Of a stretch of 41,188 bases of DNA, positions 1-13,170 are shown piece by piece. A program made the translations under genes and the position numbers. Under the pieces are notes generated by a model that did not search any database, had not been told where the DNA came from, and worked only from the letters and a program-made list of their open reading frames with translations. This stretch comes from an uncultured Oscillospiraceae bacterium (lineage in GTDB: Bacteria > Bacillota > Clostridia > Oscillospirales > Oscillospiraceae). The stretch spans positions 1 through 41,188 of the forward strand of contig CALWVS010000019.1 in NCBI GenBank assembly GCA_944385095.1, written 5' to 3'. Numbering within the stretch: the first letter of the stretch is position 1; every line of letters starts with the position of its first letter.

Positions 1-77
1 TTTTCCCTCACAGGGAAAAGGGAAAATATCGAATTTTTCCCTCGCAGGGAAAAGGGAAAATATCGAATTTTTCCCTC
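1..77. repeat. 34-bp tandem repeats with internal palindrome, phage replication region
   Basis: Two consecutive 34-bp units (about 1-33, one base cut by the window edge, and 34-67) and a third partial unit (68-77) run up to the stop codon of the primase-helicase gene. Each unit holds a palindrome of TTTTCCCT and AGGGAAAA separated by 3 bases, then a second GGGAAAA and TATCGAA. The copies differ at one base in the palindrome centre (CAC versus CGC). Such iterated palindromes beside a replication gene could be initiator-binding iterons, repressor sites or terminator-like hairpins. The array may continue to the left of the window, so copy number is unknown. Confidence 0.8.
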
Positions 78-2263
78 TATTTTCTTCCAACTTCTCCATC
101 GTCAACCCAGAAGCCTCCATGCTCTTTTAAACGACTTCGCACCGTTTTTTCAGTCACTCCCATATATTCAGCAAGGTCATTTACTGTAACACTACCACCT
201 AAACTACATGCCTGAAAGGCGGTTTCAATAGAGTCTTTACGCTCTGTTTTCCGCTCTGAAGCACTCTTCTTTCTTCCAAATTTTCCAAACCCAGATGAAT
301 CATCATCTAGCGATATGTCTGCCAAAACCCCTGCCTGATCCAATCTGTGGACTGGGTAAGAGAACCACACATTGACTGGCGGAAACTTTGGAAACTCTCG
401 CAACGTCCCCTCCACACGCCACGCTGTAAAGGCTTCTACTGCCTTTCTCGCCCGCTCCACAACACTGCCATCCCACCCTAAGATATTTGTCTCACAAGCT
501 GCTATGGAGGCTCTCTCACTGCACAAATCGTCCTGAGACACTTCTCCTAGTTTTCCGGCTGCCCTCAATGCTGCTTCACATGCGATACAGATGGCGTTGT
601 TGGTTTCCTGCTTTCTCAAATCCTCAGATACAGGTAGCTCAATCAAATCGAGCAGAGCATCTGGGTCACGGGCAAACACACCGGAGCCGGATGCACGATC
701 CATAGAGCGTTTGCTCCCTTGGTTGCCCTTGGAGTGGTGGTGGCAGTAGATGACAGCACAGCCCAACTCTGTACACACCTTGTCAAACTGATTACAGAAG
801 GCAGCCATCTGGTCAGCACTGTTCTCATCACCGGTGATAACCTTGTAAATAGGGTCTATCACAATGGCAATATAGTTCTGTTTGACTGCTCTGCGAATGA
901 GTTTCGGTGCCAGCTTATCCATGGGAACTGACTTACCACGCAAATTCCATACATCAAGGTTGCGTAAATGTGTGGTATTCCATCCAAGGGCAGTGTATAC
1001 GTCCCGAAACCGATGAAAACAGGATGCTCTATCCAGCTCTAAATTTACATACAACACTTTTCCTTGCTCACAAGGAAAACCAAGCCACTGTTTCCCTTCT
1101 GCAATGGCAATACATAATTCAATCAGAGCATAGGATTTACCAGCCTTAGATGGACCAGCCAACAGCATTTTATGTCCTTGTCTCAGTACACCATGAATCA
1201 GAGGTGGAGATAACTGAGGCAAATCTGCCCAAATTTCAGCCATACTTTCTGTATCCGGCAAATCATCATTGACACTTTCAATCCACTCCTTCCACTCTGT
1301 CCATGATGACATACCAATGTTAGTGTCCACTAAAAACTGTTTCTGCCCTTTACGAGTCACACCAGGCATTCTGGATAATCTGGACGGATTTCTGTTTTGT
1401 CGGTCAATGTCCAACCCGTTTTTTCTGCACACTTCGTAGAGATAGTCTACACGCTTCCTGTATTCGTCATAGTTACCTGCATCTACTTTGACAATAGCAT
1501 GCAGACTTTTTCCACCGGAATGGACAAGACAGGCAACTGGAAGCTCCAGGGCACGAATCACTGCATTTTGCTCCTCAATCGGCATGGAGTCTGATTCTAC
1601 CAGTGCATACCGAAATTCCGTTACATTGTCATTTTTGCACCCTGTACCATCCAACGGATTGAATCGAATCCACGCCCCAGCTTCTGGCTGGTAGTCTCCA
1701 AGCACACTGCCAATGTCACCATTGCAGCGGCTCAGTTTCTCAATCAGTTCTCCAGCTGTTCTGTCCCAGCAGCCCTTTGTGGGGAGATACTTTCCATCCT
1801 TCTCCCAGCTTTCCGTGACATATCCAACATTTTCCCCAGCCTCAAACAAGGTCTCCAGATATAAAATCAGCTGTTGGTGCGGTTGCCAGTTGCTGGGTTC
1901 GTGAACCTCTTTCCCTTCTATCCAGTCCCGATTCACCACAACCAGGTCATTGCCTCCAATGGCATCTTCCCAGCCCAATTCATAACCATTTCCATTGAAT
2001 GTTGGACTCCAGCCATATTCCATTGCCATCTGCACAATGGTAGCAGCTGTCACTGGAGTAGCACTTCCATGAAAGGAATTCCATTTTCGTCCACATTCCC
2101 CTGCATGGTATCTTTTCCCATCCCGCTTACTCCATTCCTCCCAGTCCTGAGCTGTATAGCCAGACTCTTTCAAAGCCATCCCCACATTCACCCATTCCTG
2201 ATAGCTCAAACAGGCAGGGTCAATATGACTTAAAATTTCCAATAAGTCTGTCTGTTGTTCCAT
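77..2263 (-). CDS. Phage/plasmid-type primase-helicase (PriCT_2 + RepA-like AAA ATPase)
   Basis: 728-aa replication protein, probably priming and unwinding DNA for the prophage. Residues ~10-75 resemble the PriCT_2 primase C-terminal domain (WVNVGMALKESGYTAQDWEEWS). Residues ~190-330 look like an archaeo-eukaryotic-type primase segment (LVHSGGKSLHAIVKVDA, then NPSRLSRMPG). A RepA/DnaB-like RecA-fold ATPase follows, with the P-loop GPSKAGKS at ~370-377, a hydrophobic IVIDPIYK strand as likely Walker B and an HHHSKG segment typical of RepA-like helicases. A C-terminal helix-turn-helix (LAEYMGVTEKTVRSRL) ends the protein. The start overlaps the stop of the upstream helicase gene as TGATG, so translation is probably coupled. 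It is the last gene of the visible early operon. Domain assignments are by motif recognition, not a search. Confidence 0.85.
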   Translation of the reverse strand: MEQQTDLLEILSHIDPACLSYQEWVNVGMALKESGYTAQDWEEWSKRDGKRYHAGECGRKWNSFHGSATPVTAATIVQMAMEYGWSPTFNGNGYELGWEDAIGGNDLVVVNRDWIEGKEVHEPSNWQPHQQLILYLETLFEAGENVGYVTESWEKDGKYLPTKGCWDRTAGELIEKLSRCNGDIGSVLGDYQPEAGAWIRFNPLDGTGCKNDNVTEFRYALVESDSMPIEEQNAVIRALELPVACLVHSGGKSLHAIVKVDAGNYDEYRKRVDYLYEVCRKNGLDIDRQNRNPSRLSRMPGVTRKGQKQFLVDTNIGMSSWTEWKEWIESVNDDLPDTESMAEIWADLPQLSPPLIHGVLRQGHKMLLAGPSKAGKSYALIELCIAIAEGKQWLGFPCEQGKVLYVNLELDRASCFHRFRDVYTALGWNTTHLRNLDVWNLRGKSVPMDKLAPKLIRRAVKQNYIAIVIDPIYKVITGDENSADQMAAFCNQFDKVCTELGCAVIYCHHHSKGNQGSKRSMDRASGSGVFARDPDALLDLIELPVSEDLRKQETNNAICIACEAALRAAGKLGEVSQDDLCSERASIAACETNILGWDGSVVERARKAVEAFTAWRVEGTLREFPKFPPVNVWFSYPVHRLDQAGVLADISLDDDSSGFGKFGRKKSASERKTERKDSIETAFQACSLGGSVTVNDLAEYMGVTEKTVRSRLKEHGGFWVDDGEVGRK

Positions 2264-3861
2264 CAGGTCTCACCTCCAGAGGATGCCGGAACATACTCAG
2301 CTGGGATGATTCCATGAGGGATTCTCCATCCATTGGCTGCAATACGGTCAATCAGATGTTTTGCTGATTGAAACTCCCATGTTCCCACATGCTGAAACCC
2401 TCTGCTCTCCAAAAAACGAATTTGTTTTGGTGTTGTCAATCCCTGTTCTTTACGATCAGATAAATGTCTAAGAAGCATGACCGCTTTTCCTGCATTTTCA
2501 ACCTCATCAGGTAAAATTCCCAATTTTTCCAACTTATTGATTTGTGTTTTAGTAGCTGGTTGTTTCTCCCATCCAAATGTTGGTTCATACCCACTCAAAT
2601 CCTCTGCCTGAATACTCATAGCAAATTGGAGCGGGTCTACGAGCCGCTGTTTTCTTCTTCTCATCTCATGGAGTTTTTTTGCCAGTGCCTCCTCACGCTG
2701 GGCAACAACTTCCTCACTGGCTTTTTTCTCTCCCTCCACCAGATCTACTGGACAACCGGCTGCTCCCACCTGCTCTGTCATTGTTTTTGCTACTTCCTCA
2801 CTTTCACAAATGAGATGGGCAGGGTGACAAAGTTCGTGCCGCTCTGTATTCCACAAAAAGTCCAGTAGAAGAAGGTGGTCTTTTTCAGGAAATAGTCGGG
2901 TCCCACGTCCTACCATCTGGCAGTACAGACTTCTGACCTTGGTCGGACGAAGCACAACCACACAGTCTACAGAAGGACAATCCCAACCTTCTGTCAGCAG
3001 CATAGAGTTACACAAAACATTGTATTTGCCCTGTGCATAATCCTCCAAAATCTGCTTTCTGTCCTCACTATTTCCGTTAACCTCTGCGGCATGGAATCCA
3101 TGAGTATTCAAAATATCTCTGAATTTTTGAGAAGTCTTTACTAAAGGCAGAAATACCACTGTTTTTCTATCCATACAGTACTGTTCCATCTCTGTGGCAA
3201 TTTGCTCCAAGTAAGGGTCCAGGGCAGTCCCCAGATCCCCTACTTTAAAGTCTCCACCTTGAATACTGACACCACTTAAATCCAGTTTCAATGGTATGGT
3301 AAGAGCTTTTATTTTGCATAAGTACCCCTCTTTAATTGCCTGTGGCAAGGTATACTCATAGGCTAGGGATTGAAAAAACTGCCCCAGATTTCTCATGTCT
3401 CCACGGTCAGGTGTGGCTGTTACACCCAGCACCTTTGCATCACGGAAATAGTTCAACACTTTCAAATAACCATCTGTCAATACATGGTGTGCCTCATCGA
3501 TGACAATGGTTTGAAATGCTTCTTGCTTAAATTGTTTCAAACGTTTTTCTCTCATCAGCGTTTGCACAGAACCAACCACCACTCGATACCAGCTTCCAAT
3601 ACTGGTATGTTCTGCTTTTTCCAAAGCACTTTTTAAACCAGTAGCCGATTCCAATTTATCCGCAGCCTGTTCCAGCAGTTCTCCTCTGTGGGCAAGGACG
3701 AGGATACGATCCCCTGCACGTACCCTGTCCTCAATAATTTTGGAAAATACAATGGTTTTGCCACACCCTGTTGGAAGCACCAATAGGGTCTTCTGTACTC
3801 CCTGTTCCCACTCGGATTCCACTGCCAGACGACTTGCCTGTTGATAGGGTCTCAATTCCAT
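2263..3861 (-). CDS. Superfamily II DEAH-box helicase, phage type
   Basis: 532-aa ATP-dependent DNA helicase/translocase of the SF2 type common in replication modules of Firmicutes phages. Visible motifs: Q-like RPYQ at residues 4-7, Walker A LPTGCGKT at 29-36, motif Ia LAHRGELLEQ, DEAH at 122-125, motif III-like VTATPDR, and motif VI QMVGRGTR at 315-322. The C-terminal ~150 residues are outside the helicase core and unassigned; they include a region rich in K/R/E. The TGA stop overlaps the ATG of the primase-helicase gene, and its own ATG overlaps the TGA of the DUF669 gene in the same TGATG form. It probably acts with the neighbouring primase and single-strand-binding-like protein in phage replication or recombination. 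Confidence 0.9.
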   Translation of the reverse strand: MELRPYQQASRLAVESEWEQGVQKTLLVLPTGCGKTIVFSKIIEDRVRAGDRILVLAHRGELLEQAADKLESATGLKSALEKAEHTSIGSWYRVVVGSVQTLMREKRLKQFKQEAFQTIVIDEAHHVLTDGYLKVLNYFRDAKVLGVTATPDRGDMRNLGQFFQSLAYEYTLPQAIKEGYLCKIKALTIPLKLDLSGVSIQGGDFKVGDLGTALDPYLEQIATEMEQYCMDRKTVVFLPLVKTSQKFRDILNTHGFHAAEVNGNSEDRKQILEDYAQGKYNVLCNSMLLTEGWDCPSVDCVVVLRPTKVRSLYCQMVGRGTRLFPEKDHLLLLDFLWNTERHELCHPAHLICESEEVAKTMTEQVGAAGCPVDLVEGEKKASEEVVAQREEALAKKLHEMRRRKQRLVDPLQFAMSIQAEDLSGYEPTFGWEKQPATKTQINKLEKLGILPDEVENAGKAVMLLRHLSDRKEQGLTTPKQIRFLESRGFQHVGTWEFQSAKHLIDRIAANGWRIPHGIIPAEYVPASSGGET

Positions 3862-4373
3862 CAGAATCTACCTGGCTGATAAGATACAGGGGACACAGGG
3901 GAGGCAGGGGATGGATGAATCGGCTGCTGTATCAGTTCTGTCTGTGGCTCTAGGAATCTCACCACTTCATTGATTGTGCGTTCCATGCCACTTTTATCTT
4001 TGTACTCCCGAATACCCAGTTGGGCACGTCCTGTAGCATTCAGCACCGCACCCCAATTCATCGTGAACCGCTCCCCATGCTTTCGCTGACCAATACAGGT
4101 AAAAAAGGCACATAGTAAGCCTTCTACACTGGAATGCAGGAACAGCTTGTGCTTGATGACTGCCGTACCCTCATTTGCCTCAAATTTCAAAGTAAGCACT
4201 GCCATATTACAGGGAGGCAGCTTGGCGTTTGGAGTTGGAGTGTACCGACTGCGCTCAAAACCAACCACCTCAAACTCATATTCCCCCTTTGGCAAGGTCA
4301 CATATTGCGGACTGTCATTCTCAATCTGGGCATCCCAGTCCAGCTCATAACCCATATTGTTCAAGTTACCCAT
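3861..4373 (-). CDS. DUF669 family phage protein (probable ssDNA-binding role)
   Basis: 170 aa from the chosen ATG; a TTG two codons upstream is possible, but GAGGAGG lies 8 bases before the ATG. The N-terminal core (DAQIENDSPQYVTLPKGEYE, then VVGFERS and AVLTLKFE) resembles DUF669, a family found beside RecA-like ATPases and helicases in phage recombination modules. The family has no firmly established activity that I can cite; a single-stranded-DNA-binding or annealing-support role is inferred from context. The C-terminus is Pro/Gln-rich and low in complexity (ELIQQPIHPSPASPVSPV), a tail type common in SSB-like proteins. The stop overlaps the helicase start as TGATG. Confidence 0.8.
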   Translation of the reverse strand: MGNLNNMGYELDWDAQIENDSPQYVTLPKGEYEFEVVGFERSRYTPTPNAKLPPCNMAVLTLKFEANEGTAVIKHKLFLHSSVEGLLCAFFTCIGQRKHGERFTMNWGAVLNATGRAQLGIREYKDKSGMERTINEVVRFLEPQTELIQQPIHPSPASPVSPVSYQPGRF

Positions 4374-4394
4374 ATTCAAATCCTCCTCATATTG

Positions 4395-5567
4395 TTAAAA
4401 CGGCAAGCCATAGTGTTGAGAAATCATATTAGAAACCTGCTCCCATGCCCCAATCAGTACCCCCTCCACAAAATCAACTGGATACTCCTCTAGCGGCATA
4501 TCTGCTGGAAAATATCCACGCTCTCCTACCACTTTCTGTACATCCTCTGCGGTGAAGCCCTTCATTTTCATCAGTTCATACAATGACTCCAAATGCCTCG
4601 GAACTGACTTCTGTGGTGGTTCTGATGGTTGCTGCATTTGTATGGCTGAATTAGGAATAAACACTTGGGGTGGTATACTTTCTGAAGACTGCATAATTTG
4701 AGGTTGTATCTGTTGTGGAACAACCTGTGGAGATTGTGGAAGTGGGGCAGATTGTGTGTAAGGCTGAGGTGAAGCTATCTGCTGAGATAGTGTGTACTGC
4801 TCAATGGTAGGTGCTTGTACTGCTCCGCCAAGGTCAGGAATAGATTGAACCAGCTGTGCAAAATCGAATGGCATTTCCTCTGGAAGTCCAAATCGGTTCT
4901 TGGCATCCCAACAGGGATTATGACTGGTGTACATCACCCGTTTTCCGCCCTGTACTTTGTTTTTGCCTTTGACTGCTCCCTGACCATCCACATTGACAAC
5001 GGTAGTCTTATAGTTGGCAAACAGTACCATATCTGCCCACTCTTTGACCATAGCGGCAGTGTTACACTTTTTTGATGTCTGCAATTTCAGTTCCCAGCGG
5101 TCGTAGGCTCCAAGCTCATCTGGCTGCTCAAATTTCTGTATTGCAGCATGGGCAATCAAAAGCACATTCACACCACTGTTGACCACATTGGTCAGCTCAT
5201 TCAGTAAACTTCCCATAGTCTCATAGGCAAAGCGGTATCCTGAACCATACCCACCATCTTCAATGCTTTTCCATCCTTTTTGCATACATACTGTTTCGTA
5301 TGCAAATTTCTCTGCCCAATCCAAGGTATCTAAAACCAATGTCTTACACACACTGGGATTTTGGGCAACATATTGAACTTGTTGGAGCAGCATAGGGAAT
5401 GAGCTGGGTTTATCAAATCTGGAAACATCCATTTCTACCGTACTGTCCTCTACATCAATAAACACCGGTTCTGGGAAGTGAGATGCAAAGGTGGACTTCC
5501 CGATACCTTCCACCCCATAAAGCACAATTTTTTTTGCTTTACACAGTTTTCCTCTTGATATATTCAT
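4395..5567 (-). CDS. RecA-like P-loop ATPase, phage nucleotide-binding protein (AAA_24 type)
   Basis: 390 aa from the ATG at 5567. This start is chosen because it forms TGATG with the stop of the upstream SMC-like gene and has AGGGGA six bases before it; an in-frame ATG at 5588 would lengthen the protein by 7 residues. Walker A GVEGIGKS lies at residues 18-25, then FIDVEDSTVEMDVSRFDKP, a Walker-B-like TLVLDTLDW, and a sensor-like VLLIAHA. This pattern matches the AAA_24 phage nucleotide-binding proteins (Sak4-like RecA-fold ATPases) that accompany DUF669. Residues ~240-320 are Gln/Pro/Ser-rich linker and the C-terminal ~70 residues form a separate small domain. Likely role: single-strand annealing or recombination during phage replication. 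Confidence 0.85.
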   Translation of the reverse strand: MNISRGKLCKAKKIVLYGVEGIGKSTFASHFPEPVFIDVEDSTVEMDVSRFDKPSSFPMLLQQVQYVAQNPSVCKTLVLDTLDWAEKFAYETVCMQKGWKSIEDGGYGSGYRFAYETMGSLLNELTNVVNSGVNVLLIAHAAIQKFEQPDELGAYDRWELKLQTSKKCNTAAMVKEWADMVLFANYKTTVVNVDGQGAVKGKNKVQGGKRVMYTSHNPCWDAKNRFGLPEEMPFDFAQLVQSIPDLGGAVQAPTIEQYTLSQQIASPQPYTQSAPLPQSPQVVPQQIQPQIMQSSESIPPQVFIPNSAIQMQQPSEPPQKSVPRHLESLYELMKMKGFTAEDVQKVVGERGYFPADMPLEEYPVDFVEGVLIGAWEQVSNMISQHYGLPF

Positions 5568-6859
5568 CAAAATTCCCCTGCCTTCCATGTTACTTTTTTC
5601 TCAGAAGATGGCATCGGCTCCACAATATACCCATCCTCAATAATGATAGAGCATTCTCCACCTGTACTGACCCTTGTAGCAATTCCTTGCAGTCCCTCCT
5701 GCACCATCCATGCCCCGAATTCTTCCAATGTGCTGGTGTCCATCTGCTCCAGCTTATCCAGCAGCACAAAACCACATTCTGGTTTAATGGCTCTGACAAT
5801 GGCAGTGGAGACTTTTAACTGGTCACTTCCACTCAGGTTGTCCCACTTCTTCCCCTGATAGGTCAACTCTCCGTCCTGTACAGACAGCCCTTCCAGTGGA
5901 AGGTTTGCGCCTTGTAGCAAGTCCATTTTTTCCTTACGCACACCATCAATTTCTGTGGACAGTGTGTCATATTGGCTTCTGTACTCAGATGCTTCTTCCT
6001 CTGCCTTTTCTTTGTCCCAATTGGCTCTCACCTTCTGATTGATTATCTCAATATTTTGGATACTCCGCTCCAGCTCCTCAGTAGATTGATCCTGCAAATC
6101 CAGTGCATCCCTTGTGGCAATTTCCAAATCTTTTCGTATCGCCAGAAGTTCATTTTCCTTTTGGTCAAGCTGGGTTCTCAGCTGAAAGACATGGGACTCC
6201 ACCATTGCACACTGTCTCATCAATTCGTCCCGTCTCAATCGCTTTCGCTGGTTTTCTCCATTCCGTGCCAAAATCTCCTGCTGGCTTTGAATCAGCTCAC
6301 TGATAGAAACCAGCTCTTTTGGTGCTTCCGGAAATTGTGGCATTTCATTGGCAAATTTTCGCTTTTGGTCTGCAATGCGACCAATGGCAAGGCGGTTATT
6401 GTATAGCTCCTTTTCCTTCTGCTCCAAAACAGCCAGCTGCTCGCCAACTCCGATGATTTTCAGCAGGATGTTCGCCTTTTCCTTAGAACTTGCTTCCATA
6501 AACTTCGGAAGATCCAGTGCCAACTGCTCAACAAATTCATTCAGCAGTTGCTGCCCTGCCCGTCTCCCGTCTGGATCAGTCACCTTCAGCTCACTGTTCT
6601 TTCCGGAGCGGTCTACCACAATCCCGTTGGACAGGGTAATATGTAACTTAGGTGGGAGGACAGAACCATCCCGATTGGCTTGTGATGGGCGGTAACGCTC
6701 TCCACCCAATGCCCACGCAATGGCATCTAAAATGGATGTCTTGCCTTGATTGTTGCGACCTCCAATCACAGTCAGTCCCGTAGGAGTTGGGACAATGCTG
6801 CATGCCCGAATCCGCTTGACGTTTTCCAGCTCCAGACTGGTAATTTTCACTGCACTCAT
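5567..6859 (-). CDS. SMC/RecF/Rad50-like ATPase of the phage replication module
   Basis: 430 aa. An ABC-type head (ITSLELENVKRIRA, Walker A GGRNNQGKTS at residues 33-42) is separated from the C-terminal signature (LSGSDQLKVSTAIVRA) and Walker B (GFVLLDKLEQMD) by a charged coiled coil at roughly 130-300. The layout is that of SMC-like proteins, but with a short arm. Walker B has DK where the classic motif has DE, so the catalytic carboxylate may be supplied by a later residue (E or D of KLEQMD). A good site, GAGAGGAG, precedes the ATG. The stop overlaps the next gene's start as TGATG. Likely a DNA-end or recombination ATPase partner of the downstream RecA-like protein. Confidence 0.85.
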   Translation of the reverse strand: MSAVKITSLELENVKRIRACSIVPTPTGLTVIGGRNNQGKTSILDAIAWALGGERYRPSQANRDGSVLPPKLHITLSNGIVVDRSGKNSELKVTDPDGRRAGQQLLNEFVEQLALDLPKFMEASSKEKANILLKIIGVGEQLAVLEQKEKELYNNRLAIGRIADQKRKFANEMPQFPEAPKELVSISELIQSQQEILARNGENQRKRLRRDELMRQCAMVESHVFQLRTQLDQKENELLAIRKDLEIATRDALDLQDQSTEELERSIQNIEIINQKVRANWDKEKAEEEASEYRSQYDTLSTEIDGVRKEKMDLLQGANLPLEGLSVQDGELTYQGKKWDNLSGSDQLKVSTAIVRAIKPECGFVLLDKLEQMDTSTLEEFGAWMVQEGLQGIATRVSTGGECSIIIEDGYIVEPMPSSEKKVTWKAGEF

Positions 6860-8408: not shown

Positions 8409-8437
8409 TTGACTGTGCAATATCTCAATGGTATAAT
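8409..8437 (+). promoter_or_regulatory. Repressor promoter
   Basis: TTGACT (8409-8414), 17-base spacer, TATAAT (8432-8437), followed by AAAGGATG and the TTG start of the repressor at 8460. Back-to-back with the leftward promoter, about 30 bp apart. Confidence 0.85.
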
Positions 8438-8459
8438 CCAAATGAAAGGATGTGATATA

Positions 8460-8954
8460 TTGAATACACGAATAAAAAAACTTAGGCAACAGCTTAATTT
8501 AACTCAGCAAGCATTTGCTGAGAGGATTGGGATGAAGCAAAATTCAATTGCCCTAATAGAAAGTGGAAAAAGAAATATTTCTGAGCAAGCCATTCTTTCA
8601 ATCTGTCGAGAATTTAAAGTAAGTGAAGAATGGCTGAAAACGGGAATAGGTGAAATGTTTGCTCCATCTCCAACATCAGCTCTAGATGCTCTGGCTCTGG
8701 AGCAGAAATTGACCTATGGTGAGTACATTCTTATAGAAAAAATGCTTCATTTGAAGCGGGAAGTCCGGCAAAGCATCTTGGACTATATTGTAGAGGTGGC
8801 AGCGGCTATTAATTCGGATAATATACCAATCGATTATCCTGCAGTACCTTCACCTGTAACCTTGGGAGGAAAAACTGAACAGGAACTCAAGGATATGGTT
8901 GGTAAGCATTTCCATCTTGAAAAAGAAGCGAAGGAAAAATCCGAAGTATCATGA
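8460..8954 (+). CDS. XRE/Cro-cI family repressor of the prophage
   Basis: 164 aa from a TTG start chosen because AAAGGATG lies just before it and the promoter -10 box at 8432-8437 excludes earlier starts. Residues ~4-60 form a classic XRE helix-turn-helix (IKKLRQQLNLTQQAFAERIG, then SIALIESGKRNISE) followed by CREFKVSEEWLKTG. The rest has a helical oligomerisation-like region (EYILIEKMLHLKREVRQSIL) and a charged tail. No S24 peptidase Ser/Lys dyad is visible, so it is not the RecA-cleavable LexA/cI type; induction may need an antirepressor or another protease. It divides the lysogeny module from the early operon. Confidence 0.88.
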   Translation: MNTRIKKLRQQLNLTQQAFAERIGMKQNSIALIESGKRNISEQAILSICREFKVSEEWLKTGIGEMFAPSPTSALDALALEQKLTYGEYILIEKMLHLKREVRQSILDYIVEVAAAINSDNIPIDYPAVPSPVTLGGKTEQELKDMVGKHFHLEKEAKEKSEVS

Positions 8955-9094
8955 TCTGGCGGCTGCTTCATAGGCAAAAAATCTGGTATGAATAAGGGCA
9001 GCCAGCAGACCGCAGACCTATGGGATCTGTCAAAAATTAAATGGAATTGAAGCACTGCTTAATTTAAGTGCTTGAGATTCAAGACTTTTGTAGC

Positions 9095-9245
9095 CTTTTC
9101 CCCGCACATGCGGGGGTGATCCCGTATCAAAATAATTCGTAAAGACTTAGGACTACTTTTCCCCGCACATGCGGGGGTGATCCCTGCTTCTTCTCTTTCG
9201 GTAGTGCTTCGAATTGCTTTTCCCCGCACATGCGGGGGTGATCCC
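9095..9245 (+). CRISPR. Mini CRISPR array, three repeats and two spacers, type I-E form
   Basis: Three identical 29-base repeats at 9095-9123, 9156-9184 and 9217-9245, each starting CTTTTCCCCGCACATGCGGG and ending GGTGATCCC. They are separated by two different spacers of exactly 32 bases (9124-9155, 9185-9216). The 29/32 geometry, the CCCCGC/GCGGGG stem and the ATCCC end match type I-E repeats. No cas gene is in the window, so crRNAs would need Cas proteins encoded elsewhere. It lies between the prophage repressor and the DUF4160 cassette. Transcription direction is inferred from the repeat ends; no clear leader was identified. Two decayed copies lie downstream at 10144-10231. Confidence 0.93.
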
Positions 9246-9284
9246 ACGAGAGCAAAGTAAGCTAAAAAACCAAAATATACGCAT

Positions 9285-9319
9285 AAGTTATTGACGTTTA
9301 ATAACTTGTATGTTATAAT
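9285..9319 (+). promoter_or_regulatory. Strong promoter with overlapping palindromic operator
   Basis: TTGACG (9291-9296), 17-base spacer, TATAAT (9314-9319). An 8-bp perfect inverted repeat, AAGTTATT (9285-9292) and AATAACTT (9300-9307), straddles the -35 box, as expected for an autoregulated toxin-antitoxin-like operon. The likely binder is the XRE protein encoded third in the operon. Confidence 0.85.
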
Positions 9320-9344
9320 AGTGCCAGAAAGTGAGGAAAACGAG

Positions 9345-9596
9345 ATGCCAGAGATTACAAGATTTTATGGGATTATCATTAAGATTTTTCTAACGAGGGA
9401 GCATAACCCACCACATTTTCACGCAGTATATGGAGAATATAACGGTAGCTTTGATATTCAGACACTGGAAATGTTAGAGGGAGATTTACCTCGTAAAGCC
9501 CAACAGATGATTAAAGAGTGGGCTGGAGAGTACAGAGCCGATATGATGAAAATGTGGGAAACAAAGACAATTAAAAAGCTCCCCCCGCTGGAATAA
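9345..9596 (+). CDS. DUF4160 domain protein
   Basis: 83 aa. The start (MPEITRFYGIIIKIFL) is chosen because the promoter ends at 9319 and AGGA lies 8 bases before the ATG. NPPHFHAVYGEYNGSFDIQT and the following LEMLEGDLPRKA are typical of DUF4160, a small family often encoded next to DUF2442. The conserved H-x-H with flanking acidic residues could be a metal or catalytic site, but no activity is established that I know of. First gene of a three-gene operon with DUF2442 and an XRE protein; this arrangement resembles toxin-antitoxin loci. The operon sits between intact and decayed CRISPR repeats. Confidence 0.88.
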   Translation: MPEITRFYGIIIKIFLTREHNPPHFHAVYGEYNGSFDIQTLEMLEGDLPRKAQQMIKEWAGEYRADMMKMWETKTIKKLPPLE

Positions 9597-9608
9597 GCGA
9601 GGGGAGCT
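9577..9608 (+). terminator. Intra-operon hairpin over the DUF4160 stop codon
   Basis: AGCTCCCC (9577-9584) pairs with GGGGAGCT (9601-9608), with a further GCT/AGC pairing inside. The stop codon of DUF4160 lies in the loop. No strong T-run follows, so partial termination, RNA processing or control of relative expression of the two genes are possible. Confidence 0.55.
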
Positions 9609-9633
9609 AAAACCAAGAAAGGGGGCTAACAGG

Positions 9634-9903
9634 ATGGCTTTATCTGTAAGAGTAAAAGAGGTAAAAGCTCTTGATAACTTTATGCTATCCGTTCTTTTCG
9701 TGAACGGAGTAAAAAAACTGTACGATGTAAAGCAACTCTTCCCAGAATTTCCACAGATATTTACCCCTCTAAAGGATAACCCGGCACTATTTAAAAATGT
9801 AATAGTAGATTGTGGTGGATGTGGTATATCTTGGAATGAGGATATAGACATTTCCGAGTGCGAGCTTTGGGAAAATGGAGTATTAGAAAGCGTGAGCGTA
9901 TGA
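9634..9903 (+). CDS. DUF2442 domain protein
   Basis: 89 aa, MALSVRVKEVKALDNFMLSV followed by FVNGVKKLYDVKQLFPEFP and a C-terminal GISWNEDIDISECELWENG. This is the usual DUF2442 pattern: an N-terminal strand pair that binds a partner, a YDV..L core, and a WNEDIDIS end. GAAAGGGGG precedes the ATG. The stop overlaps the start of the XRE gene as ATGA. DUF2442 proteins recur next to DUF4160 and HTH proteins; the biochemical role is unknown, so assignment as toxin or antitoxin would be guesswork. Confidence 0.88.
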   Translation: MALSVRVKEVKALDNFMLSVLFVNGVKKLYDVKQLFPEFPQIFTPLKDNPALFKNVIVDCGGCGISWNEDIDISECELWENGVLESVSV

Positions 9904-10121
9904 CAGCAGAGGAAAAGAGAGAAGAGCTTGTAGCGGAGATTGTCAGGCTCCGGCAAGAGCAAGGACTGACACAAAAACAGCTTGAGCAATTAAGTGGGGT
10001 AAAACAGCCTATTATAGCAAGAATGGAAACGGGGACAAACATTCCACAGCTATCCACTATGATTAAATTACTTGTACCTTTAGGAAAGACCCTTGCAATC
10101 GTCCCTTTGGAGCAACATTGA
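9900..10121 (+). CDS. XRE family HTH protein, antitoxin-like
   Basis: 73 aa; the ATG overlaps the DUF2442 stop by four bases. Residues ~10-62 are a compact XRE domain (EIVRLRQEQGLTQKQLEQLS, then GVKQPIIARMETGTN). The C-terminal LVPLGKTLAIVPLE is the short tail seen in HigA/RelB-type antitoxins with an XRE fold. It is probably the autorepressor acting on the palindrome at 9285-9307. A perfect hairpin 49 bases after the stop probably terminates the operon. Confidence 0.85.
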   Translation: MTAEEKREELVAEIVRLRQEQGLTQKQLEQLSGVKQPIIARMETGTNIPQLSTMIKLLVPLGKTLAIVPLEQH

Positions 10122-10143
10122 TGCAATCGTATCTATCAGAAAT

Positions 10144-10231
10144 CTTTTCCCACACATGCTGGTCTGATCCCAAGGGGGTCGCAAAATGCGACCCCCTTGG
10201 AGGCTTTTCCCCACATAGAGGACGTGGATCG
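10144..10231 (+). repeat. Two decayed CRISPR repeats with a 32-base palindromic spacer
   Basis: 10144-10171 matches the array repeat with one deletion and about five substitutions (CTTTTCCCACACATGCTGG, ending CTGATCCC). 10204-10231 keeps CTTTTCCCC at its start and GTGGATCG at its end but has lost the stem. The interval between them (10172-10203) is exactly 32 bases, the spacing of the intact array. This supports common origin with 9095-9245 rather than chance. Repeat-stem pairing is broken in both. Confidence 0.75.
10170..10200 (+). terminator. Perfect 14-bp hairpin after the XRE gene
   Basis: CCAAGGGGGTCGCA (10170-10183), loop AAA, TGCGACCCCCTTGG (10187-10200), then AGGCTTTTCC. It begins in the end of the decayed CRISPR repeat and fills most of the 32-base spacer. 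The T-run is short (TTTT), so it may be a moderate terminator or a double-strand-symmetric protein-binding site. Confidence 0.65.
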
Positions 10232-10240
10232 AAAAAAAGA

Positions 10241-10283
10241 TATAATACAAAAACAACCCTATTCTGTAATACCAGAATAGGGT
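10241..10283 (+). promoter_or_regulatory. Integrase promoter -10 box and palindrome
   Basis: TATAAT at 10241-10246, with no good -35 box (the decayed repeat lies there). It is followed by an 11-bp perfect inverted repeat, ACCCTATTCTG (10256-10266) and CAGAATAGGGT (10273-10283), in the integrase leader. The palindrome would sit near the transcription start, so it could be an operator or a leader hairpin. GGAGGTGAAG and the integrase ATG follow. Confidence 0.65.
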
Positions 10284-10308
10284 CAATTAAAAATGGAGGT
10301 GAAGTTTT

Positions 10309-11418
10309 ATGTCTGTGGCAAAAATGAAGGACGGAAAGCGGTGGTACGTCTTTGTCCGATACAAAGACTGGACGGGAGCCACAAAGCAACACAAAAAAGA
10401 GGGATTTACAAAGAAATCTGATGCGTTGGCGTATGAGCGGACTTTTTTAGAGAAGCAGAATGGCTCATCTAATATGACCATCCACTCCCTTTATACACTG
10501 TATATGGAAGATTGTAAATCAAGACTCAAACCAACCACCTACGCAAACAAAGAGTTTCTGTTCCAGAAGCATGTGCTTCCCTATCTCGGTAATCTATCTG
10601 CCAATGAAGTTGGTCCCGCTCAAATTAGACGGTGGCAAAATATGCTGCTTGATTCCAAACATCCAGATTCTGGTGAGTCCTACTCCCAAACTTATCTTAA
10701 AACGGTTCACAATCAAATTTCAGCTCTTTTTAACTTTGGGGTAAAATATTATGGCATAAAAAATAACCCATGCCGGCAGGCTGGGTCAATGGGAAAGAAA
10801 AATGCAGATGCTATGCAATTTTGGACAGTAGACGAATTCAACAGATTCATAAATGCAGTTTCTGATAAACCATATTCTGTTGTTATGTTCTCTCTTCTTT
10901 TTTGGACTGGTATGCGATCAGGTGAAATGTTGGCTCTTACTCCAGCCGATTTTGACTTTAAAAACAACACAGTCAACATCAATAAGAGCTTTGCCAGACA
11001 CGAAGGGCAAGACCTTATTATGGATCCAAAGACACCAAAAAGCAAACGGACAATTCCTATTACCCAAAAACTGGCTGATATGGTGCAAAACTACATACAG
11101 ACAATCTATGGTTTAGATTCTACTGACCGTATCTTCCAAACCAACACAAAACACCTATTGCTCCACGAAATGAAAAGAGGGTGTGCAGCATCTGGAGTGA
11201 AACGGATTCGAGTTCATGATCTTAGGCACTCCCATGCCTCTCTTTTGATTGAGCTAGGGTATTCTCCCCTGCTTATTGCTGAACGCCTGGGACACGAAAA
11301 CATAGAGACAACTCTACAAACCTATTCCCATTTGTACCCCAATAAGCAGGGGGAATTGGTGTCGAAACTAGAAACCTTTCAAAATAGCTACGATTTTGCT
11401 ACGCATGAATTTAAGTAG
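10309..11418 (+). CDS. Tyrosine recombinase / phage integrase
   Basis: 369 aa, usual length for this family. The N-terminal ~50 residues resemble an AP2-like arm-binding domain (GKRWYVFVRYKDWTGATKQ), then a SAM-like core-binding domain (~57-150). The catalytic domain shows R203 (WTGMRSGEML), a K in DPKTPKSKR near 241, H303 and R306 (HDLRHSHA), H329 (LGHENIETTL) and nucleophile Y339 (TYSHLY), so all active-site residues are present. GGAGGTG precedes the ATG. It ends 94 bp from the 3' end of guaA, pointing to integration there. Confidence 0.95.
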   Translation: MSVAKMKDGKRWYVFVRYKDWTGATKQHKKEGFTKKSDALAYERTFLEKQNGSSNMTIHSLYTLYMEDCKSRLKPTTYANKEFLFQKHVLPYLGNLSANEVGPAQIRRWQNMLLDSKHPDSGESYSQTYLKTVHNQISALFNFGVKYYGIKNNPCRQAGSMGKKNADAMQFWTVDEFNRFINAVSDKPYSVVMFSLLFWTGMRSGEMLALTPADFDFKNNTVNINKSFARHEGQDLIMDPKTPKSKRTIPITQKLADMVQNYIQTIYGLDSTDRIFQTNTKHLLLHEMKRGCAASGVKRIRVHDLRHSHASLLIELGYSPLLIAERLGHENIETTLQTYSHLYPNKQGELVSKLETFQNSYDFATHEFK

Positions 11419-11512: not shown

Positions 11513-13054
11513 TTATTCCCACTCAATTGTAGCTGGTGGCTTACTGGTAACATCATAGCAAATACGGCTAATACCGCTGACCTCGTTGACAATACGCACA
11601 GAGATACGGTCCAACAATTCATAGGGAATTCTTGCCCAATCTGCGGTCATAAAGTCACTGGTCGTTACTGCACGCAGTGCAAGTGCATAATCGTAGGTGC
11701 GGTAATCGCCCATGACACCCACAGAACGGGTATTGGTCAACACTGCAAAATACTGGTTCAAGTTTTTATCCTCTCCAGCCTTTGCAATCTCCTCACGGAA
11801 AATATAGTCAGCATCACGGAGCAAATCTGCTTTCTCCTTTGTAATCTCACCAATGATACGGATGGCAAGACCTGGACCGGGGAATGGCTGACGGCTGACC
11901 AGATATTCTGGCAGACCAAGCTCACGACCCAAGTCACGTACCTCATCTTTGAAGAGCATCCGCAGAGGCTCAATGATTTCTTTAAAGTCAACATAGTCAG
12001 GCAAACCGCCTACATTGTGATGGCTCTTAATGACAGCAGCATCCCCAGCACCAGACTCAATCACATCAGGATAGATGGTTCCCTGTGCAAGAAAATCTAC
12101 TGCACCAATTTTCTTTGCTTCTTCCTCAAAGACACGGATAAATTCCTCACCAATGATTTTCCGCTTGCTTTCAGGCTCTGTCACATCTGCCAGCTTACCA
12201 AGGAAACGCTGTTCTGCATCCACACGGACGAAGTTGATATCCCATTTCGAAAATGCGTTTTCTACTTCATCCCCTTCATTCTTACGCATCAATCCGTGGT
12301 CCACAAACACACAGGTCAGTTGCTTACCCACTGCCTCTGCCAGCAGTGCAGCCACAACAGAGGAATCCACACCGCCGGAAAGTGCCAGCAGAACCTTACC
12401 ATTTCCTACTTTTTCCCGGACCTGAGCAATGGCAGTTTTGCAGTAATCTCCCATGGTCCAATCACCAACTGCACCACAGACTTCATACAGGAAATTACGA
12501 ATCATAGTAATACCATGCTCGGTATGATTCACCTCTGGGTGATACTGAACCCCATAGAATCCCCGCTTTTCGTCTGCAATTGCCACATTGGGGCAAGCAT
12601 CAGAATGGGCTGTCAGTGCAAACCCATCTGGCACCTTTGCCATATAGTCACTGTGGCTCATCCATGAAATTCCCTCGCTGGGCAGCCCCTTAAAAATCTT
12701 GCAGGTGGTATCGTAATAGGTTTTGGTTTTTCCATACTCTCGGGCAGAGTCGTCCTGTGCTTCCACCACTTCTCCACCCAAAGCCTGTGCCATCAACTGA
12801 CTGCCATAGCAAATACCAAAAATGGGGACGCCCCATGTAAAAATTTCATTATCAACATGGGGAGAATTTTCCAGATATACACTGTTTGGACCACCGGTGA
12901 AAATAATACCGATTGGATTCATAGCCTTTATTTCAGCAAGTGGAGTGTTATATGGCTTCACTTCACAGTACACATTGCATTCACGCACACGACGTGCAAT
13001 CAACTGATTATACTGTCCGCCAAAGTCAAGGACAACGACCATTTGATGGGACAT
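11513..13054 (-). CDS. guaA: GMP synthase (glutamine-hydrolysing)
   Basis: 513 aa. Converts XMP to GMP using glutamine and ATP, last step of guanine nucleotide synthesis; cytosolic. The N-terminal class I amidotransferase domain shows GGPNSVY, the nucleophile Cys82 (FGICYGSQL) and His172/Glu174 (YHPEV). The ATP-pyrophosphatase P-loop SGGVDSS is at 226-232, and the C-terminal dimerisation domain ends in PPATIEWE as in the family. I start at the ATG 12 bases after AAAGG; a GTG four codons upstream is too close to that site. It is transcribed toward the prophage integrase. No purine riboswitch was recognised upstream. Confidence 0.96.
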
Positions 13055-13170
13055 AATAATTGACACCCTTTCTTTGTTTGATTTCTCATAGATTTAACCA
13101 AATATTGCTTGTTTTTTACATATCAATCTTCTATACTAACCTCATCCAATACAGAAAAGGAGATGATAGC

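Follow-up and report, generated by a model that had tools for sequence, protein, structure and literature searches.

The window analysed here, a stretch of 41,188 nucleotides from the draft genome of an uncultured Oscillospiraceae bacterium, carries on its forward strand a CRISPR array (9095-9245) that is composed of three identical 29-nt repeats of type I-E (9095-9123, 9156-9184 and 9217-9245) and of two unique spacers with a constant length of 32 nt (9124-9155 and 9185-9216). The array sits between the gene of a phage repressor-like HTH protein (8409..8954, forward strand; HTH_3/HTH_19 and phage regulator families) and that of a tyrosine integrase (10309..11418, forward strand; PF00589, phrog_1). 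To its left are phage early and replication genes, encoding a primase, a helicase, a Sak4-like annealing protein and an SbcC-like ATPase (77..6859, reverse strand; Pfam and PHROGs), and to its right, as the next gene after the integrase, is the host gene guaA for GMP synthase (11513-13066, reverse strand), which is the likely attachment site of the prophage. Host genes are also found on the contig of the array-bearing prophage. The initial annotation had described three perfect 29-base repeats with 32-base spacers between repressor and integrase, and this description is borne out by the coordinates and the gene models.

Related integrases are encoded in 79 of 300 genomes of the family. In three loci of this kind a repressor-like HTH gene, named by eye, directly abuts the integrase gene, and the region 8955-10308 of the window is therefore regarded as added cargo. 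As far as the array is concerned this cargo is rare, since a CRISPR-like repeat within approximately 1.5 kb of the integrase is absent from all 29 other loci of a comparison that comprised the 30 loci returned, the one in the window included, some of them cut by contig ends.

The second component of the cargo, on which the initial annotation was silent, is an operon of three genes on the forward strand. It encodes a DUF4160 protein as candidate DhiT-like toxin (9345..9596; PF13711, E=4.5e-20), a DUF2442 protein as candidate DhiA-like antitoxin (9634..9903; PF10387, E=4.8e-8) and a small HTH regulator (9900..10121; PF01381, E=1.6e-12). As its DUF4160 and DUF2442 genes are neighbours on the same strand, it resembles dhiTA of Dickeya dadantii, which has been described to work as a toxin-antitoxin (TA) system in D. 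dadantii and in E. coli, but differs from the system described there by its third, HTH gene and by its location in a prophage behind a CRISPR array (PMC8198452). The operon is preceded by a promoter-like site, TTGACG-17-TATAAT (9291..9319, forward strand), which is a match to the consensus only (11 of 12 consensus bases); the region contains four such sites as compared to a mean of 3.6 in shuffles, i.e. not more than expected from these. Four phage records with DUF4160 and DUF2442 were found, and both of those examined (PP511792.1 and PQ571279.1) have the two genes side by side and are devoid of these CRISPR repeats, and thus the TA genes do not need the array. In PQ571279.1 they are followed by the gene of an HTH-type regulator, as in the window.

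The operon fills the gap between the array and a pair of degenerate repeats (10143-10232, forward strand) that enclose a palindromic spacer of 32 nt. The first repeat of the pair (10143-10171) deviates from the intact repeat at 7 of 29 positions and the second (10204-10232) at 11 of 29, and the two are spaced by 61 nt. None of 100 windows resampled by dinucleotides contained such a pair when both strands and distances of 59-62 nt were considered, which confirms the earlier observation of degenerate copies with a 32-base spacing as real. The sequence between the repeats contains a 14-bp palindrome (10170-10200), whose arms match perfectly around a loop of 3 nt and which overlaps the first degenerate repeat by 2 nt. 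In folding stability the 90-nt pair surpassed 198 of 200 shuffled sequences. The hairpin of the repeat itself has mostly disappeared from the pair (-0.7 and -4.2 kcal/mol as compared to -13.2 kcal/mol). The appearance of the pair is that of a decayed array end on the trailer side, set apart from the rest by the TA operon. The former suggestion that the locus once was a single array is plausible, with the addition that what separates its parts is a toxin-antitoxin operon.

Origin of the mini-array

Upstream of the first repeat, and adjoining it, lies a CRISPR leader (9049..9094, forward strand), recognised by local alignments to the reference loci L149 and L063, and in front of it a stub from the 3' terminus of a type I-E cas2 gene (9015..9048, forward strand), in which 28 of 34 bases are identical, without gaps, to the cas2 end of L150. 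The 78 nt upstream of the first repeat thereby match the cas2 3' end and leader of a complete type I-E locus: positions 9015-9092 align with those of L149 with 53 identities in 79 columns, and between the end of the alignment and the repeat there remain 2 nt in the window and 3 nt in L149. The leader alignments reach 9092 for L149 and 9089 for L063 and end 2-6 nt short of the first repeat on both sides. The reading frame of the cas2 remnant reads TYGI..KL..I, yet it continues beyond the position of the cas2 stop.

In a local alignment test with 11 references, none of 2000 background segments attained the match for L149, where it covers cas2 end and leader, or for L150, where it covers the cas2 end alone, and 1 of 2000 did so for L063. 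For the other eight references, background segments attained it in 26 of 2000 (cas2 end of G651) or in 137-1477 of 2000 cases (the remaining seven), and the match thus stands out against only 3 of the 11 references in this test. A right-anchored test with 10 references gave 0 of 1000 background segments for L063, L147, L149 and L150, of which L147 is discordant, as it was attained by 811 of 2000 segments in the local test. We relied on nucleotide comparisons for the cas2 remnant because its match on the protein level, 11 residues with a score of 32, remained below the shuffle maxima of 34 and 42.

Given the match to both the cas2 end and the leader, the array looks, as judged from these alignments, to have been captured together with its leader from the cas2-leader-array junction of a type I-E locus. 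Such a scar would mean that a virus can gain a leader-bearing mini-array when it picks up the tip of a cas locus.

Cas genes and related arrays in the host and in other genomes

The absence of cas genes from the vicinity of the array, as previously noted, is confirmed. In the draft genome of the host (98.9% complete, 59 contigs) models of Cas8e, Cas6e and Cas7e found no match, these models responding in only 2 of 14 control genomes, the E. coli control not among them. The Cas7e model, however, responds in 3 of 10 genomes (G454, G606 and G651), and since these three belong to the wider group at least this model works here. The only match to Cas1 in the host sits in an operon which, by its gene order and repeat, we take to be of type I-C. 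A search of the host genome for type I-E cas genes and for further copies of the repeat, as proposed in the initial annotation, has therefore been successful for the repeat only, and the array is probably silent in its present host.

The identical repeat is found in two more orphan arrays of the host assembly, C46 and C58, both of which lie beside TA genes; as both are contigs of 6 kb they could be misbinned. The array of C46 comprises four exact repeats and, at the contig end, a fifth one of poor match, and its last repeat ends 16 nt before the gene of an MNT nucleotidyltransferase, to which a HEPN-like gene and the gene of a large serine recombinase are joined. That of C58 consists of ten repeats, of which six are exact, and its final repeat ends 27 nt before a gene pair with a DUF4160 gene as second member; the contig also encodes the phage-type proteins HNHc_6 and DUF6291.

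In the genus sample of 64 genomes the repeat was detected, at ≤2 mismatches, in the host alone. It was present in 13 of 400 genomes of the family (≤3 mismatches) and in 13 of 395 order genomes (≤1 mismatch, with another form of the pattern), the host being included in both counts and four repeat-bearing genomes being common to the family and order samples. These two samples yielded 22 non-host loci, whose cas genes were named by eye from ORF order and sequence: 12 are adjacent to cas genes, 5 are cut by a contig end, 3 consist of a single repeat-like sequence and 2 are of other kinds, namely L060 with five repeats and L148. The latter comprises the gene of an S24-type repressor, two small genes, an array of 2 repeats and an integrase gene, and thus repeats the arrangement seen in the window. 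The genome that harbors L148 has a type I-E cas operon on another contig, with cas7e assigned by model and the rest by eye; its cas3 reads as two ORFs, and its own array is not seen because the contig ends 95 nt after cas2.

When the genome contigs were scanned for the repeat together with a ribosome-binding site and an ATG, 20 loci were obtained. In 18 of them every match lies inside an array, and in two, L068 and a locus of genome G454 (L069), the match is terminal. L068 combines a repressor gene, 2 repeats, a Fic gene that begins 17 nt after the last repeat and integrase-like pieces, the first of which was tested by model; the Cas7e model found no match in the genome to which L068 belongs. 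The locus in G454 (L069/L120/L121, WRMW01000003.1) is of type I-E and includes cas genes, with Cas7e assigned by model, and its distal array is interleaved with HicAB, AbiEii, a transposase and small genes, which are separated by single repeats or short blocks of repeats; it also holds a weak epsilon-antitoxin-like gene, below the Pfam cut-off. Such TA modules between repeats were present in this one cas-linked locus; among the 12 loci of the family and order samples that adjoin cas genes, we noticed no further case. As to the leader, none was found at L068 and C58, and that of L148 is weak at best.

In the virus contig collection (viral_contigs) the repeat had 0 matches, exact or degenerate. 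Queries with the whole array matched 36 phage and 183 plasmid records and, among the matches listed (15 each), are driven by the repeat by the look of them. One record filed as bacteriophage (MT835722.1) contains 27 repeats and ORFs that read as a bacterial type I-E cas locus. Sixteen Streptomyces phage records (e.g. OL455886.1) match the array query as well; among those listed, the matches are repeat-like sequences of approximately 29 nt with about 89% identity and E values of 0.5-2, each possibly a solitary repeat.

Possible functions of the array and its toxin-antitoxin partners

On the level of sequence we consider as established the array with its cas2-leader scar, its position in a prophage, the TA genes next to it and the recurrence of similar pairings in a few further integrated elements. 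The initial annotation of a mini-array in a prophage lysogeny module, with a decayed pair from the same repeat family downstream, has gained support, with the array now assigned to type I-E and provided with a leader and a cas2 stub in an architecture that recurs.

Mini-arrays with leader and without cas genes have been described for the Sulfolobales viruses SPV1 and SPV2. The window array shares with these, in the account given there, the 1-2 spacers, the leader, the absence of cas genes, the use of a repeat class of cellular arrays of the group and the location inside a virus. It differs in that it is of type I-E, lies in a bacterial prophage and has a cas2 stub and a TA operon alongside, and also in having no spacer shown to hit a related virus and a host without matching cas genes (PMC6858448). 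Cas proteins able to use the repeats were not found in the present host, which shows only the operon read as type I-C; the L148 genome does have a type I-E operon. A further parallel exists in C. difficile, where one study found CRISPR arrays in most of its predicted prophages and the vast majority of these arrays to be cas-less (PMC10778935), where type I TA genes adjoin arrays, two of them in phiCD630-1 and phiCD630-2 (PMC6563280, citing Maikova 2018), and where the host CRISPR system is of type I-B (PMC8406132). The parallel comprises the cas-less prophage arrays, the TA genes beside them and the role in prophage stability proposed for them (PMC10778935, PMC6563280). As described, however, the C. 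difficile TA systems are of type I, with RNA antitoxins, and go with type I-B, whereas here type I-E repeats occur with protein TA or Fic genes in a host without type I-E. Repeated pairing of cas-less type I-E arrays with protein TA genes near integrases would thus extend the C. difficile link to other bacteria and other TA types. Among the papers listed from the open-access literature, as judged by titles and the beginnings of abstracts and with few subscription papers covered, we recognised none on type I-E mini-arrays beside protein TA genes in prophages, and we regard as new the cas2-leader scar, the association with protein TA genes and the array-TA junctions that leave no space for a promoter.

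What, then, would be the role of the array? We consider it fairly probable, if well short of certain, that it is a phage-borne mini-array which is able to borrow the type I-E Cascade of a host, is packaged with an addiction module and is silent in the present host. The prophage would have acquired the leader-proximal tip of a type I-E locus, with cas2 end, leader, repeats and spacers, and would have kept it as cargo between repressor and integrase, together with the DUF4160-DUF2442-HTH operon. Type I-E processing yields crRNAs of ~61 nt which begin with the GTGATCCC handle; in a compatible type I-E host, Cas6e of the host may cut the array transcript, its Cascade may use the two guides against competing elements and the leader may permit the addition of new spacers, while the TA genes may stabilise the cargo or the prophage. 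The perfect, leader-bearing array, the position of this repeat class beside type I-E cas genes in 12 of the 22 loci and the arrangements at C46, C58, L148 and L068 all support such a role. On the other hand, the missing type I-E cas genes of the host and the missing Cas7e match in the L068 genome, the rarity of the cargo, the occurrence of the TA genes without an array in phages and the restriction of the leader match to 3 of 11 references count against it.

So does the outcome of the proposed protospacer search, in which neither the two array spacers nor the palindromic spacer had a convincing target. Both window spacers had 0 matches in viral_contigs with every sixth base left free, did not recur at ≤3 mismatches in the genus sample of 64 genomes and had best phage matches of E=0.02, to an enterobacterial phage, and E=3, the former also being the best of four single-spacer phage searches. 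Five spacers and the palindromic spacer had 0 matches in viral_contigs, and a phage origin of the latter was rejected on these grounds; its 26/32 'match' in its own genome is the palindrome itself, read on the other strand. Altogether, single searches against a virus collection covered 6 of the 16 distinct spacers that the five loci have between them, and none of these 6 had a convincing protospacer.

The lack of convincing protospacers, the lack of type I-E cas genes in the host and the decay of the downstream pair would also fit a silent relic, i.e. a fragment of a type I-E locus that was left by recombination and is now functionless, beside TA genes which are an unrelated prophage gene set. 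Such a relic is conceivable, though in our view unlikely, given that all three repeats are perfect, that the leader is still recognisable and that a second and a third array with the same repeat lie beside other TA genes in the host assembly.

More doubtful is a closer coupling, in which array and TA genes are transcribed as a single unit, by which the TA genes would be linked to the CRISPR machinery, and in which phages and some type I-E arrays trade such cassettes. At the cas-less loci C46, L068 and C58 the last repeat lies 16, 17 and 27 nt, respectively, before the start codon of the TA or Fic gene. The gap holds a ribosome-binding site, and as 16-27 nt leave no room for a promoter and a simple promoter scan of the C46 and C58 arrays found none, transcription of the genes at all three loci probably passes through some or all of the array. 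L068 is no independent evidence for a short gap, since the scan that retrieved it had asked for one. As background for the gap lengths the genes after 14 other arrays were listed; two of these lists (L153 and MT835722.1) start with an ORF that overlaps the array by 7 nt and that we take to be a chance frame. In the window itself such coupling need not apply because the TA operon has a promoter-like site of its own. In a coupled unit Cas6e of the host might cut the leader of the mRNA at the last repeat, and the TA genes might guard the array against loss through repeat recombination, as TA cassettes are said to guard superintegrons in like manner; the HicAB and AbiEii genes between the repeats of the cas-linked array in G454 would be a chromosomal example. 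The pairing poses the testable question whether Cas6 can control a TA gene through an upstream CRISPR repeat.

We regard it as improbable that the array serves as an RNA anti-CRISPR (Racr), whose repeat transcripts titrate Cas6e and Cas7e of type I-E hosts and thereby shield the phage. Phage-borne repeat mimics, type I-E included, have been reported to inhibit CRISPR, and a non-targeting crRNA to lower interference as well (PMC10651486), and this would fit a phage that moves between hosts with and without type I-E. However, Racrs are solitary repeat units in mobile elements, whereas the window has a regular three-repeat array with two full-length spacers and a leader, and the degenerate pair lacks most of the repeat hairpin.

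Finally, regulation of the CreTA kind, in which Cascade, directed by guides of the array or of the decayed pair, would repress the toxin genes next to them, had been raised in the initial annotation. Degenerate repeats that adjoin toxin genes do recall CreTA, yet CreT is described as an RNA in a cas-linked system whose guide matches the toxin promoter (PMC9458426), and neither a guide complementary to the toxin promoter nor a linked functional cas locus was found here. None of 15 spacers, the palindromic one included, has a seed or word match to its own TA region of a size attained by fewer than 5% of 500 shuffles. Given this, the apparent lack of a type I-E Cascade in the host and a spacer in the degenerate pair that folds on itself, we reject this reading as highly improbable. 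Compared at full length with four pieces of their own genome, the spacers did not outscore the best of 3 shuffles, two C58 spacers excepted, which exceed it by one base at distant places of the window. In the C58 array (L009, 5728-5820) two adjacent spacers are identical, as after the duplication of a repeat unit.
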